A stretch of DNA of 41,482 bases from Desulfuromonadales bacterium. Its GTDB lineage: Bacteria > Desulfobacterota > Desulfuromonadia > Desulfuromonadales > Geoalkalibacteraceae. Every line of letters starts with the position of its first letter. Positions within the stretch are counted from its first letter, which is position 1. Where the stretch lies: the NCBI GenBank assembly GCA_024636255.1, contig JAGXHK010000035.1:1-41482 (forward strand), given 5' to 3'. Under the pieces are notes generated by a model. It was not told where the DNA came from and did no database searches. It saw nothing but the letters and a program-made list of their open reading frames with translations. Below, piece by piece: positions 1 to 33,662 of this stretch. A program made the translations under genes and the position numbers.

Positions 1-1
1 C

Positions 2-550
2 CTGGGTTCCCGCGGCGTCGAGCTGCCCGAGGGCGCGCCCGAGGACCCGCCGTCCGCCGATACCGTCTGCGGGCTGGGCAACCGCAAGAACGAGGCGTTC
101 AACGAGGTGCTCGCGCGCGACGGCGTGACGGCGTATCCCGGCAGCGTGGCGCTGCTCGACCACCTGCGCGATCGCGAGGTGCCGCTGGCCGTGGTCTCCT
201 CCTCCGCCAATGCTCCCGCCGTGCTTGCGGCCGCGGGCCTGCTGGACCGCTTCGCGCACGTCGTCGACGGCCGGGTGGCCACGGCCGAGGGCCTGGCCGG
301 CAAGCCCTCGCCCGAGACGTTCCTGCACGCGGCCGCGCTGCTGGGCGCCGGACCGGAGCGCAGCGTCGTGCTGGAGGACGCCGTGTCCGGGGTGCAGGCC
401 GGGGCGGCCGGCGGCTTCGGCGACGTGATCGGCGTCGACCGCGGCGCCGGTGAGCAGGTGCTCCGAGGGGCCGGCGCCACGGTCGTGGTCGCCGACCTGG
501 CAGAGCTGGTGCCCGCGGCGTCGACCCGGGCGGGGCAGGGGCCCCGATGA
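2..550 (+). CDS. pgmB: Beta-phosphoglucomutase family HAD hydrolase, 5' end outside window
   Basis: The frame is open from the left edge, so the N-terminus with the DxD nucleophile motif is missing. What remains shows HAD motif II (VVSSSAN), the motif III lysine in GKPSPETF, and motif IV as VLEDAVSGVQAG. The run GLGNRKNEAF near the left edge is typical of beta-phosphoglucomutases, which convert beta-glucose-1-phosphate to glucose-6-phosphate. The stop overlaps the ATG of the next gene (ATGA at 547-550), and that gene is a GH65 enzyme. A GH65 phosphorylase releases beta-glucose-1-phosphate, so the pair forms a disaccharide phosphorolysis module. Base composition is extremely GC-rich with almost only G or C at third positions, unlike the genes after about 1.9 kb. 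I infer an actinobacterial source for this segment. Confidence 0.85.
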   Translation: MGSRGVELPEGAPEDPPSADTVCGLGNRKNEAFNEVLARDGVTAYPGSVALLDHLRDREVPLAVVSSSANAPAVLAAAGLLDRFAHVVDGRVATAEGLAGKPSPETFLHAAALLGAGPERSVVLEDAVSGVQAGAAGGFGDVIGVDRGAGEQVLRGAGATVVVADLAELVPAASTRAGQGPR

Positions 551-2994
551 GGCGCGAGGCCCCCCCGCTGGACCCCCGGCGCTGGCCCGCGGCCCCGTGG
601 CGGCTCGTCGAGACTGCTCACGAGCCCGCTGACCTCGGCGTCACCGAGACGCTCTTCAGCGTCGCGAACGGCTACCTCGGCATGCGCGGCAACCCCGAGG
701 AGGGCCGCGACGCGCACGCGCACGGCACCTTCATCAACGGCTTCCACGAGACCTGGGACATCCACCACGCCGAGGCCGCCTTCGGCTTCGCGCGCACCGG
801 CCAGACCATCGTCAACGTGCCGGACGCCAAGGTGCTCAAGCTCTACGTCGACGACGAGCCGCTGATCCTCGGCACGGCCGACCTCGAGCACTACGAGCGC
901 TCCCTCGACCTGCGCGACGGCGTGCTGCGCCGCTCGCTGATCTGGCGCACGCCCGCCGGCAAGCGGGTGCAGGTGGACTCCACGCGCACCGTCTCCATGG
1001 TGGAGCGGCACCTCGCGCTGTTCACCCTCGAGGTGACCATGCTCGGTGGCGACGCCCCGGTCGTCGTCTCCTCCCAGCTGATCAACCGGCAAGACGGCGA
1101 GGACGAGTACCACGTGAGCGAGCACGCGATGGGCAGCCGCGGCGACCCGCGCAAGGCGAGCCGCTTCCCGGCCCGCGTGCTGCTCCCGCGCATCTCCTAT
1201 GCGGACGCGTTGCGCACCACGCTCGGTTTCCAGTGCGCCCGCTCGGGCATGACCCTGTGCGTCGCCGCCGACCATGCCATCGAGACCGAGGACCACCACG
1301 AGGTCGTCCACCGGGCCGGGGACGACCTCGTCAAGGCGGTCTTCCGCGTCGACGCGACGCGCGGCAGGACGCTGCGCCTGACGAAGTACGTCAGCTACCA
1401 CACCTCCCGCGGCGTGCCGCCGCGCGAGCTCTCGGACCGGTGCGACCGGACGCTCGACCGCGCGCGCAGCCACGGCGTGGCGCACTACCACCGGGCCCAG
1501 CGGGAGTGGTTCGACGCGTTCTGGCGCGATGCCGACGTCGAGGTCGCCGCCCGGGTCGACGGCGGCGGCCCGGGGGCAGCGGGGATGCCCGCCCGCGACG
1601 GGCGGGTGGCCTCGCCCGAGGCGCTGCAGCAGACGGTCCGCTACAACATCTTCAACATCGCCCAGGCCAGCGCGCGGGCCGACCAGCAGGGCGTGCCCGC
1701 CAAGGGCGTCACCGGCTCGGGCTACGAGGGCCACTACTTCTGGGACGCGGAGGTCTACGTGCTCCCGTTCCTCGTCTACACCCAGCCAGAGATCGCCCGG
1801 AACCTGCTGCACTTCCGGCGCCGAATGCTGCGGGCGGCGCGGCAGCGCGCTCGCGAGATGGCCCACTTCGGCGCCCTCTTCCCCTGGCGCACCATCAACG
1901 GCGAGGAGGCTTCGGCATATTACGCCGCCGGAACCGCGCAGTACCATATCAACGCCGATATCATCTACGCGCTGCGCAAATACGTCGAAATCACCGACGA
2001 CAAAGCCCTGCTTTTCAATGAAGGGGCCGAGATGCTGGTGGAGACCGCCCGCTTGTGGCTCGATCTGGGCTTCTATTCCAAGCGCCAGAACGGCAAATTC
2101 TGCCTCCACGGCGTGACCGGGCCGGATGAATACAATACCGTGGTCAACAACAATGCCTACACCAACCTCATGGCCCGCGAAAATCTCTGGTGCGCAGCGC
2201 AAACCGTTCGTTACATGCGGGACAATTTCCCCGAGCACTTCCAGAACCTGAAGCACCGCACCGGCCTCGATTCCGGCGAGGTCGAGCAGTGGCAAAAGGC
2301 CGGCGACAGCATGTACATCCCGTACGATGAGGAGCTCGGGATCAATCCGCAGGACGACAACTTTCTCGATCGCGAGGTCTGGGACATCGAAGGCACGCCG
2401 CGCAGCCGGTTTCCCCTGCTGCTCTACTATCATCCGCTGGTCATCTATCGGCATCAGGTGATCAAGCAGGCCGACGTGGTGCTCGCCATGTTCCTGCTCG
2501 GCGATGAATTTTCCCTGGCACAGAAAAAACGCAATTTCGAGTATTACGACCCGCTGACCACCGGTGATTCGTCGCTCTCGGCCTGCATCCAGAGCATCAT
2601 CGCCACCGAAATCGGCGATATGGCGAATGCGCTCAAATACGCCCGCTACGCCGTGCTCATGGATCTTGCCGACGCGGGCGGCAACGTCAAGGACGGCTGC
2701 CACATCGCCTCGATGGGGGGAACCTGGATGGTCATGGTGCACGGCTTCGGCGGCATGCGCGATTACGGCGGGCAGATCAGCTTCACCCCGCGCCTGCCCG
2801 CCATCATGAACCGGCTGCGCTTTCGCCTGACGGTGGGCAATCAGCTGCTGGAGGTCGATGTGGCCCGCAAGGAGTGCACCTACCTTCTCAAGGAGGGGAC
2901 CGAGTTGCCCATCCTCCACATGGGCAAAGAAGTTCTGGTGCGGCGCGGCGAGAGCGTCACCCTGCCTGTTCGCCAGCCCGATTCAACTGAATAG
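547..2994 (+). CDS. GH65 family glycoside phosphorylase/hydrolase, composition mosaic
   Basis: This 815-residue protein has full GH65 length. Visible hallmarks are FWDAEVY near residue 398, GVTGPDEYN near 522-530 (Glu528 is the expected general acid), the phosphate/sugar-site run VIKQADVV, and a C-terminal DYGGQISFTPRLP segment. The family includes maltose, trehalose and kojibiose phosphorylases; the specificity cannot be read here. It overlaps the upstream phosphoglucomutase by 4 nt, a usual pairing. The odd feature is inside the frame. Up to about nt 1905 (residue ~455) codons are nearly all GC-ending, then abruptly AT-ending codons such as GCA, TAT, CAT, GAT, AAA and GAA become common and the rest matches the neighbouring genome. 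The reading frame and family alignment are uninterrupted, so the two halves are homologous pieces from different genomes, joined either naturally or by assembly. Confidence 0.9.
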   Translation: MRREAPPLDPRRWPAAPWRLVETAHEPADLGVTETLFSVANGYLGMRGNPEEGRDAHAHGTFINGFHETWDIHHAEAAFGFARTGQTIVNVPDAKVLKLYVDDEPLILGTADLEHYERSLDLRDGVLRRSLIWRTPAGKRVQVDSTRTVSMVERHLALFTLEVTMLGGDAPVVVSSQLINRQDGEDEYHVSEHAMGSRGDPRKASRFPARVLLPRISYADALRTTLGFQCARSGMTLCVAADHAIETEDHHEVVHRAGDDLVKAVFRVDATRGRTLRLTKYVSYHTSRGVPPRELSDRCDRTLDRARSHGVAHYHRAQREWFDAFWRDADVEVAARVDGGGPGAAGMPARDGRVASPEALQQTVRYNIFNIAQASARADQQGVPAKGVTGSGYEGHYFWDAEVYVLPFLVYTQPEIARNLLHFRRRMLRAARQRAREMAHFGALFPWRTINGEEASAYYAAGTAQYHINADIIYALRKYVEITDDKALLFNEGAEMLVETARLWLDLGFYSKRQNGKFCLHGVTGPDEYNTVVNNNAYTNLMARENLWCAAQTVRYMRDNFPEHFQNLKHRTGLDSGEVEQWQKAGDSMYIPYDEELGINPQDDNFLDREVWDIEGTPRSRFPLLLYYHPLVIYRHQVIKQADVVLAMFLLGDEFSLAQKKRNFEYYDPLTTGDSSLSACIQSIIATEIGDMANALKYARYAVLMDLADAGGNVKDGCHIASMGGTWMVMVHGFGGMRDYGGQISFTPRLPAIMNRLRFRLTVGNQLLEVDVARKECTYLLKEGTELPILHMGKEVLVRRGESVTLPVRQPDSTE

Positions 2995-26769: not shown

Positions 26770-26785
26770 TGTTTCACGTGAAACC
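26770..26785. promoter_or_regulatory. parS site (ParB-binding palindrome)
   Basis: TGTTTCACGTGAAACC matches the conserved parS consensus TGTTTCACGTGAAACA at 15 of 16 positions. It lies in the short spacer between mnmG and mnmE, close to the parAB genes and ~4-6 kb from the oriC candidate, the usual place for an origin-proximal parS. Confidence 0.92.
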
Positions 26786-30581: not shown

Positions 30582-30954
30582 TCTTTTGCTCCTTTATCTC
30601 TCTTCGAAAAGCGTCAAGTAAAGGGGATTTTAAAACACACATCAACTCCGAAGTCAAGCGCGAAAAGGCCAACCCGTTGCTCTTCGAATCGCCAAATCCG
30701 AAAGAGAAACTCCCGAGTTAAATTTTTTCTCTTTATCCACAAAATATCCAGCGACAAAGAGGCTTGCATTCCGTGCGCCCTCTCTGTTACTTTATTCAAT
30801 CCTTTAAAGGATTCAGAATATTAGATACAAAGCCTTGAAAATAAAGATTTTTTCCTTGTTCCACAGCTGTTTATAAGCTGTGAATTGTCTGTATTGAAAA
30901 GGCGGGAGAGAACGCGAACGCCTCCCCTTATAAAAAAAGATAATTGTATTTTCA
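30582..30954. promoter_or_regulatory. rpmH-dnaA divergent spacer with one perfect DnaA box and two palindromes
   Basis: This 373-bp AT-rich gap contains TTATCCACA (30733-30741), a perfect DnaA box; a 16-bp palindrome AATCCTTTAAAGGATT (30798-30813); and an inverted repeat CACAGCT-7-AGCTGTG (30862-30882). It must hold the divergent rpmH and dnaA promoters and may be a secondary part of the origin or a dnaA autoregulation region. No gene is supported on the plus strand. Confidence 0.6.
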
Positions 30955-32310
30955 ATGGATAGACTCTGGCGCGAAACATTAACAGCTCTTGAACAGACGA
31001 TGAAGCCCCAACACTTCACAACCTGGATTAAACCGATCCGGTTTGTGCGGGTCGATAAATCGGAAGTTTATCTGGAGGTGCCGAATCGCTTCTTTCTCGA
31101 CTGGGTCCGGGATAATTATGCCGGCCAGATCACGCAGACCCTCTCCTCGATCGGCGCGATCGATTACCAGGTCAGCTTCCAGGTGGCGCAAAAACATCCC
31201 GGGGAAAAACCCGGCCGCGGTTCCGAACCTCGCCCGGAGCCGGCCATGCCGCAGCCGCCGGTAAAAACTCCCGCCAAATCGGAGAGCTTTGCCTCGAATC
31301 TGAATCCGAAGTATATTTTTACCGACTTTGTCCCAGGATCATCAAATCAATTTGCTCACGCCGCCGCAATGGCTGTGGCGAATAATCCCGCAACCACTTA
31401 CAATCCCCTGTTCATCTACGGAGGCGTTGGCTTGGGAAAAACCCATCTTGCCAATGCAATCGGCAATGCCATCCTCAAGAAGAATCCGGAGATGAGCGTC
31501 TGCTATTATGCTTCCGAAAAATTTATGAATGAGTTGATCAACTCGCTGCGCTATGCCCGAATGGATGAATTTCGCAACAAATTTCGCTCCATGGATGTCC
31601 TGCTTATCGACGATGTTCAGTTTATCGCCGGCAAAGAACGTACGCAGGAAGAGTTTTTCCACACGTTCAACGCCCTTTACGAGTCGCACAAGCAGATCGT
31701 TGTGACCTCGGATAAATTTCCGAAGGAGATACCGGGTCTCGAGGAGCGTCTGCGCTCGCGCTTTGAGTGGGGGCTGATTGCAGATATACAACCACCGGAT
31801 GTGGAGACCAAACAGGCGATTCTGCGCATGAAGGCAGAGAAAAACGGGATTGAGCTTCCGGAGGATCTGGCTATTTTTCTGGCCAATTCCGTATCAAGCA
31901 ACGTTCGGGAACTCGAGGGCTATCTGATAAGGCTGGGCGCTTACGCCAGTCTGACTTCCACCCCGATCACCCTGGAGCTGGCGCGCGACGTTCTCAAGGA
32001 TATTCTGATCGAAAAGAACCGGGAATTGGGGGTGGATGAAATCCAGAAGGTCGTCGCCTCTCATTTCGGCATAAAAATTTCAGATCTCAAATCGGCCAAA
32101 AGACTTAAGGCCCTGGTGCTGCCTCGCCAGATTGCCATGTATCTTTCGCGTCAACTTACGTCTCTCTCATTTCCCGAGATCGGCGATCGCTTCGGTGGCA
32201 AGGATCATTCGACAATCATTCATGCGATTAAGAAAATTGAGAAGAAAATGGAGGAGGACCTGCAGCTTCGCTCAGCGATCACAACGCTCAGAAATAGCCT
32301 CTCCCGTTAA
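30955..32310 (+). CDS. dnaA: Chromosomal replication initiator DnaA
   Basis: The 451-residue protein shows domain I (LWRETLTALEQ..FTTWIKPI), a Pro-rich linker, AAA+ domain III with Walker A YGGVGLGKTHLANAIG, Walker B VLLIDDVQFIAGK and sensor residues, and domain IV ending in GGKDHSTIIHAIKKIEK, the DnaA-box reader. It unwinds oriC when ATP-bound. No good ribosome-binding site precedes the ATG, which is common for dnaA. Confidence 0.97.
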   Translation: MDRLWRETLTALEQTMKPQHFTTWIKPIRFVRVDKSEVYLEVPNRFFLDWVRDNYAGQITQTLSSIGAIDYQVSFQVAQKHPGEKPGRGSEPRPEPAMPQPPVKTPAKSESFASNLNPKYIFTDFVPGSSNQFAHAAAMAVANNPATTYNPLFIYGGVGLGKTHLANAIGNAILKKNPEMSVCYYASEKFMNELINSLRYARMDEFRNKFRSMDVLLIDDVQFIAGKERTQEEFFHTFNALYESHKQIVVTSDKFPKEIPGLEERLRSRFEWGLIADIQPPDVETKQAILRMKAEKNGIELPEDLAIFLANSVSSNVRELEGYLIRLGAYASLTSTPITLELARDVLKDILIEKNRELGVDEIQKVVASHFGIKISDLKSAKRLKALVLPRQIAMYLSRQLTSLSFPEIGDRFGGKDHSTIIHAIKKIEKKMEEDLQLRSAITTLRNSLSR

Positions 32311-32543
32311 AATGGAGTGTGCATAACCTCGGTATGTGCCGGGGGATGGATCGGGGGATAACTACTTTTCCACAATCGGCCCGCCAGAAGGGTCGCTTCG
32401 GCCACACCCCCATGCACACGCGCCAGAGCGGACTGCGACTGGGCCAGAGCTGCGTTTCAACATATACACAGCCCCTACTATGTACTACTATTTAAAGCTT
32501 TAAAACCTATAATAACAATAGGTCATGTGAATAAGGAGGCTTT
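32311..32543 (+). other. Candidate oriC: DnaA boxes, DnaA-trio-like repeats, AT-rich unwinding region
   Basis: The dnaA-dnaN gap contains four box-like sites: TTATGCACA (32318-32326, minus), TTTTCCACA (32366-32374, plus), ATATACACA (32462-32470, plus) and TTATTCACA (32526-32534, minus). Directly after the third comes GCCC and then CTACTA (32475-32480), TGTA, CTACTA (32485-32490) and ~30 bp of AT-rich DNA (TTTAAAGCTTTAAAACC...). On the bottom strand CTACTA reads 3'-GATGAT, the DnaA-trio pattern of the B. subtilis basal unwinding system, in the same order: box, GC spacer, trios, AT-rich. The dnaN ribosome-binding site AAGGAGG closes the region. Confidence 0.75.
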
Positions 32544-33662
32544 ATGAATTTCGCCATTGAAAAGGAATTTTTTCTCAAGGGGCTTGCCAGAATTCAAGGC
32601 ATCGTCGAAAGACGCAACACCATCCCTGTTCTGGCCAATGTGCTGATCGAGACCCATGAGGGAGAAATCTGTCTGACGGCTACCGATCTCGAAGTCGGAA
32701 TGCGATCCTTTTATCCGGCTAAAATAAAAGAATCGGGACGGATCACCGTTTCGGCTAAAAAGCTCTACGAAATCGTGCGCGAGTTGCCCGAGGGTGAACT
32801 CTCCTTTAAAGCGAAAGAGAACTGCTGGATCGAGATCCGCTCGGGCAAAGCAATTTTCAACATTGTCGGTCTTTCACCAGAGGAATTTCCCCATTTTCCC
32901 GATACGGCGCAGCAGGGGTTCATCTCGCTGCCTCCCGAAACTCTCAGGGAGATGATAGATAAAACCACTTTCGCCATGTCGACGGACGAAACCAAATACA
33001 ACCTCAATGGCATTTTTTTCCGCTCCTTCAGCGACGATCAGGTGCATCATCTGAGCCTGGTGGCCACCGACGGCCATCGCCTGAGCAAAATAGAGCGTGA
33101 AATCCCCGCAGTAGATATTCCGCAGTTGCACAAAGGGGTTATCTTCCCGCGCAAGGGGATTATGGAGTTGAAGAAAATGTCGGAAGAGGGAGAGGGGAAT
33201 CTCGAACTCGGCTTCATAGAGAACAGCGCAGTCATCCGGCGCGCCAAAACCGTGGTCGTCATGCGCCTGGTTGATGGTGAATTTCCCGAGTACGAACGGG
33301 TCATTCCGCGCGACAACGAGGTTTCGGCTATCATCCCGACCGCTGTTTTCCTGCAGGCCCTGCGCCGCATGGCGATTCTATCCAGCGAAAAATCGCGCGG
33401 TGTAAAAATATCCCTGCAGCCTGGCGTGCTGGAGGTTTCCTCTTCGAACCCCGAATTTGGCGACGCCCGTGAAGAGATCGGGGTAGACTTTGATGGACAG
33501 GCGCTGTCCATCGGTTTTAATGCCCGCTATCTTCTCGATATTCTTCAGAGCATGGAGGCGGAGAAGGTTGATTTGCGGCTCAAGGACAACCTTTCCCCGG
33601 GGCTTCTCGTGCCCGAGGAAGAGGGGAATTACCTGGCGGTGATCATGCCGATGCGTCTTTGA
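32544..33662 (+). CDS. dnaN: DNA polymerase III beta sliding clamp
   Basis: A 372-residue clamp made of three similar domains. Typical runs are the N-terminal IVERRNTIPVLANVLIE, LSLVATDGHRLS in the middle domain and the C-terminal YLAVIMPMRL. It tethers the replicative polymerase. AAGGAGG at 32533-32539 precedes the ATG. It is the first gene on the dnaN side of the putative origin. Confidence 0.97.
   Translation: MNFAIEKEFFLKGLARIQGIVERRNTIPVLANVLIETHEGEICLTATDLEVGMRSFYPAKIKESGRITVSAKKLYEIVRELPEGELSFKAKENCWIEIRSGKAIFNIVGLSPEEFPHFPDTAQQGFISLPPETLREMIDKTTFAMSTDETKYNLNGIFFRSFSDDQVHHLSLVATDGHRLSKIEREIPAVDIPQLHKGVIFPRKGIMELKKMSEEGEGNLELGFIENSAVIRRAKTVVVMRLVDGEFPEYERVIPRDNEVSAIIPTAVFLQALRRMAILSSEKSRGVKISLQPGVLEVSSSNPEFGDAREEIGVDFDGQALSIGFNARYLLDILQSMEAEKVDLRLKDNLSPGLLVPEEEGNYLAVIMPMRL

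Follow-up and report, generated by a model that had tools for sequence, protein, structure and literature searches.

A one-base phase break recurs in the putative DnaA-trio arrays of Desulfuromonadia replication origins

How would DnaA open an origin whose trios do not keep a single three-base register? This question is raised by the spacer between dnaA and dnaN in a Desulfuromonadales genome, where CTA repeats beside a DnaA box are interrupted by a 4-nt step that displaces the later repeats by one base. We analyzed the whole stretch of 41,482 nucleotides that contains this spacer (hereafter, the window), which forms one of the 201 contigs in a MAG of 82% completeness, from a family that includes Geoalkalibacter (Desulfuromonadales). 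The plus strand carries dnaA (30955 to 32310, 451 amino acids; Pfam Bac_DnaA, Bac_DnaA_C, and DnaA_N), dnaN (32544 to 33662, 372 amino acids; Pfam DNA_pol3_beta domains), a RecF/SMC-family gene (recF), and gyrB, and the minus strand carries parB, parA, gidB, mnmG, mnmE, and yidC. Between dnaA and dnaN lies a spacer of 233 bp (32311 to 32543) with a cluster of DnaA boxes, in a layout that is conserved in relatives. A parS-like site, TGTTTCACGTGAAACC, with one mismatch, is found on the plus strand at 26770 to 26785, between mnmG and mnmE; this near-perfect site adjoins parA and parB.

The cumulative GC-skew minimum of the window falls at 33081, inside dnaN, in a skew that is weak (−0.016 on the left and +0.017 on the right). 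For the nearest family relative by DnaN with a large contig (G002), 20-kb samples gave positive skew on the side after dnaA-dnaN and negative skew on the side before it. Samples taken 180 kb to 1.3 Mb past these genes were positive and those lying between 2.3 Mb and the end negative, with mixed values in the intervening part. On the skew check suggested with the original prediction of an oriC, the minimum at 33081 and the G002 pattern are consistent with an origin, but the sampled skew of another family member (G001) showed no clear pattern. Taken together, gene order, the parS-like site, and the local minimum in skew are in keeping with an oriC. Toward the left contig end (window positions 1 to 2000), the G+C content is 71 to 75%, versus about 50 to 60% near oriC.

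Upon searching for matches to TTATNCACA with at most one mismatch, we obtained 22 box-like sites in the window, compared with 10.75 expected, a number reached in none of 100 shuffles. The four box-like sites previously reported in the spacer were all recovered by this search. An exact match, TTATGCACA, lies on the minus strand at 32318 to 32326, and TTTTCCACA, with at most one mismatch, on the plus strand at 32366 to 32374. Near the trios, a weak box, GTTTCAACA (32454 to 32462, plus strand), overlaps a better one, ATATACACA (32462 to 32470, plus strand; at most one mismatch), yielding a co-oriented overlapping pair that had been overlooked as such; at the position of the weak upstream box, relatives carry TTATCAACA or TTATCCACA. 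An inverted box, TTATTCACA (32526 to 32534, minus strand; exact match), stands against the dnaN ribosome-binding site. A second cluster of boxes lies upstream of dnaA (30720 to 30955), with an exact TTATCCACA at 30733 to 30741 and TTATAAACA on the minus strand at 30868 to 30876. The B. subtilis origin has two parts, and the upstream cluster recalls that layout.

The box pair is followed on the plus strand by a 4-nt GC spacer, GCCC (32471 to 32474), a first trio block, CTA CTA (32475 to 32480; bottom strand 3'-GAT GAT-5'), the step TGTA (32481 to 32484), a second trio block, CTA CTA (32485 to 32490), and a 30-bp stretch of 83% A+T (32491 to 32520) that is the putative unwinding region. The trio strand accordingly reads 5'-TAG-TAG-TACA-TAG-TAG-3', and TGTA, a 4-nt step that can be read as an additional base followed by GTA, shifts the later trios by +1. 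This confirms the order of box, GCCC, CTACTA-TGTA-CTACTA, and AT-rich DNA that had been noticed earlier. The array CTACTATGTACTACTA at 32475 to 32490, four bases past the box, is the sole match in the window (0.23 expected per 41 kb at up to two mismatches), and shuffling the spacer alone produced four CTA within 16 nt in only 17 of 20,000 cases. Conservation in relatives puts the array well beyond chance.

We then asked whether this element qualifies as a basal unwinding system (BUS). The published search rule (PMC8287927) calls for a box with at most two mismatches and, 0 to 16 nt from it, three or more NAN trios in phase, and in the window it selects ATATACACA, a spacer of 11, and GTA CTA CTA TTT. 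The rule also selects about 9% of shuffled spacers, a share that drops to 0.05% when at least two exact CTA trios are required; because the rule is this loose, conservation is the stronger evidence. Those relatives that bear names belong to Desulfuromonadales and Geobacter-like bacteria. Nearly all of the 129 distinct spacers from relatives contain the box pair, a short GC-containing spacer, and CTA-rich trios, as exemplified by TATCAACAAATCAACAGGCATCTACTACTATCTACTG (L011). This conservation of the trios beside the box pair, the lack of which the original prediction had named as a refutation, marks the element as a probable BUS and, along with layout and gene order, supports the reading of the spacer as an oriC with box, GC spacer, trios, and AT-rich DNA in that order. 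A continuous three-base register from the box is absent, as only CTA CTA keeps to it and the later trios are at +1. The B. subtilis model has such continuity but the search rule does not demand it, so that we class the locus as a variant BUS. Three MAGs titled Gillisia, Spirochaetales, and Elusimicrobia (L042, L068, and L104) carry dnaA-dnaN loci of the Desulfuromonadia type and are probably mislabeled.

The emphasis originally placed on an occurrence outside Firmicutes is not supported: a BUS has been predicted in 1755 of 2070 origins (85%) across most bacterial phyla, and it is active in vitro in the Gram-negatives H. pylori, S. elongatus, and D. radiodurans, in H. pylori also by genetic evidence (PMC8287927). 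A BUS outside Firmicutes is thus not new, and the locus appears to be an ordinary oriC carrying a known kind of unwinding module. With the B. subtilis BUS (incC, DnaA-boxes 6/7 plus trios), it shares the position in the dnaA-dnaN spacer, a co-oriented box pair, a GC spacer of about 4 nt, 3'-GAT-5' trios, and AT-rich DNA; it differs in the weak upstream box of its pair and in its TAG-TAG blocks, which lie four bases apart instead of six and hence one base out of register. The Gram-negative systems likewise combine a box with trios (PMC8287927), but in H. pylori the trio strand quoted in PMC10316083 forms a single in-phase run, whereas the array in the window is phase-broken. In the Thermotoga maritima oriC with its eTrio, TAG repeats apart from the box-proximal trios bind DnaA and an inverted box takes part, both of which resemble the present locus, although the essential TAG repeats there lie past other annotated trios and the box consensus is another one (PMC10316083).

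What sets the array apart is its phase. The original prediction described TGTA as an insertion splitting the trios; the interruption is real, but it is better called a +1 phase break, one that recurs class-wide in many sequence forms. Measuring how far apart successive CTA lie within the array region across Desulfuromonadia, we counted 206 distances of the form 3k, 55 of 3k+1, and 6 of 3k+2, against control ratios (3k:3k+1:3k+2) of 1:7:2 upstream and 17:13:7 on the opposite strand. Split by group, which was done by locus list and is hence approximate, the ratios were 138:23:4 in Desulfuromonadales and 54:25:1 in Geobacter-like loci; other Desulfobacterota classes gave 49:4:1 from only 27 arrays. 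The excess of 3k+1 over 3k+2 (48 to 5) has a binomial p of 7e-10, a value that is too small because the rows are related. Array anatomy, conservation, and this 3k/3k+1 rule can be read directly from the sequences. A strict three-base repeat would not predict a +1 jump kept across the class, and literature searches on phase or register breaks in trios and on Geobacter with DnaA-trio returned nothing relevant and no paper, respectively.

In the 97 rows for which a DnaN protein was at hand, arrays were at +1 in 47 cases, in phase in 42, and at +2 in none, with 8 unclassed. Mapped onto a DnaN tree, a quick build with many weak branches from which one doubtful +1 row (L067) was left out, the array state changed at least nine times, and both states were clustered. 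On these comparisons, the phase-broken array appears as a recurrent variant within the class, of which no description turned up in the papers searched. Two loci with nearly identical DnaN, from Geobacter argillaceus (L088) and a MAG labeled Deltaproteobacteria SKS3.bin71 (L091), have different trio arrays (CTACTACTATTACTA and CTACTGCTACTACTA), both in phase. As the window comes from a fragmented MAG, its one-base offset could in principle be an assembly or sequencing error, a notion largely refuted by the relatives: the nearest one (L003), a different genome with a 3.5-Mb contig, shares the position of the break, and 46 further arrays carry a +1 break. We regard such an error as very improbable.

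In Geomonas the break comes after one trio, in the window and in its nearest relative after two, and in others after three, and its four bases vary widely (TGTA, TTTG, TCTG, TCTA, TTGA, CTTA, CTGA, and CTAA). What recurs is therefore the +1 offset and not a particular sequence. This variability also bears on the proposal that the spacing is set not by DnaA but by an overlapping element such as the −35 of a dnaN promoter. In some relatives the break does coincide with TTGACT, TCGACT, or TAGACT, and TATAAT-like elements commonly stand some 30 to 36 nt before dnaN (in the window, TATAAT at 32508 to 32513, plus strand, is a possible −10). Yet a promoter element would have to accommodate break bases that differ so widely and that come after different trios, and a search of the window spacer for a sigma-70 promoter gave no full match; we consider this explanation improbable. 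The dnaN promoter was also tried as the source of the CTA repeats themselves and was rejected on the same two counts, the missing full match and the varying break sequence.

A more serious alternative holds that only trios in one register are used, either the two box-proximal CTA or the second block, and that the +1 break reflects drift in the unused part. The second block alone, as GTA CTA CTA TTT 11 bases past the box, agrees with the published rule, and B. subtilis DnaA disfavors a register shift: a register-shifting one-base deletion significantly slowed strand separation in vitro, whereas a three-base deletion did not slow unwinding (PMC6669920). The later trios of the window may therefore contribute little, and a class-wide +1 break needs explanation. 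Drift, however, predicts 3k+2 breaks as often as 3k+1, since one-base gains and losses would be equally acceptable, and we observed 47 arrays at +1 and none at +2, with at least nine changes of state. In many genomes, moreover, neither block has lost its exact CTA repeats. The deletion shortens the step while +1 arrays lengthen it, so that the B. subtilis result is compatible with tolerance of a +1 step. We hold the use of a single register to be somewhat unlikely.

Our preferred reading, in which DnaA crosses the break, draws on the structure of the protein. The best PDB match of the window DnaA is B. subtilis DnaA 8BTG, over the whole length, and the ISM residues E183, N187, I190, R202, K222, E223, and E228 are conserved, with Ala in place of Asn196; the trio-reading residues (B. 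subtilis N187, I190, R202, and E228) are conserved in relatives as well. The cryo-EM structure of the B. subtilis protein bound to its BUS shows bases one and two of each trio captured in a pocket that adjacent protomers form, and the third base facing away, uncaptured (PMC10721633). By analogy with other species, from which DnaA binding, strand choice, and unwinding at the window origin are inferred, DnaA would bind the box pair at 32454 to 32470, the oligomer would pass across GCCC onto the bottom-strand trios (3'-GAT GAT ACAT GAT GAT-5'), and, once bound there, it would open the AT-rich DNA at 32491 to 32520, with the inverted box at 32526 to 32534 bounding the far side. Two bases of each trio would be captured and the third left outside; in Desulfuromonadia, this outside linker may occasionally hold two bases, which would amount to tolerance of an extra uncaptured base and would let the oligomer cross a step of 4 nt, whereas one of 5 nt or 2 nt would stop it. 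Overall, we assign a probability of roughly three in four to the account of the locus as a Desulfuromonadales oriC with a BUS core and +1-displaced later trios, for which the occasional two-base linker is our proposed mechanism.

Because Asn196 contacts the uncaptured base in B. subtilis and is Ala here, residue 196 was considered as the determinant of the +1 break and rejected: the raw association was strong (Fisher p 1e-7) but vanished when independent pairs were compared on the tree, and in other classes Glu or Gln occupies this residue where the origins are in phase. With kinship considered, we found no DnaA feature that tracks the +1 state.

The far side of the AT-rich stretch may hold a counterpart. 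On the minus strand, the inverted box at 32526 to 32534 is followed by TGAC and then by CTA TTG TTA TTA (32510 to 32521), a possible second, inward-facing trio set that the BUS rule also selects. An inverted box-like sequence that covers the dnaN ribosome-binding site is retained in relatives, and in the 41 spacers with better inverted boxes, trio-like YTA was enriched (147 versus 99 in shuffles), as was the YTA step of 3 (33 versus 7.5 in shuffles). The origin may thus carry a second, facing BUS; as the inward set overlaps the −10-like site, its reading is ambiguous, and two-sided opening is no more than a possibility. The wider proposal, that Desulfuromonadia DnaA reads through the +1 break, with two captured bases and a linker of one or two, and that the origin may open from both ends, is tentative.

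The DnaA-trio has been described as a trinucleotide code with a register that matters, on evidence from one species. A class with recurrent +1 but no +2 breaks offers natural variants that test the strictness of this code, and the +1 arrays also probe how far the helix of DnaA on single-stranded DNA can stretch. Origin finders that require in-phase trios are suggested to mis-register such arrays. If the tentative wider proposal were true, the single-stranded code of these bacteria would consist of two captured bases followed by a one- or two-base linker, in place of a strict triplet.
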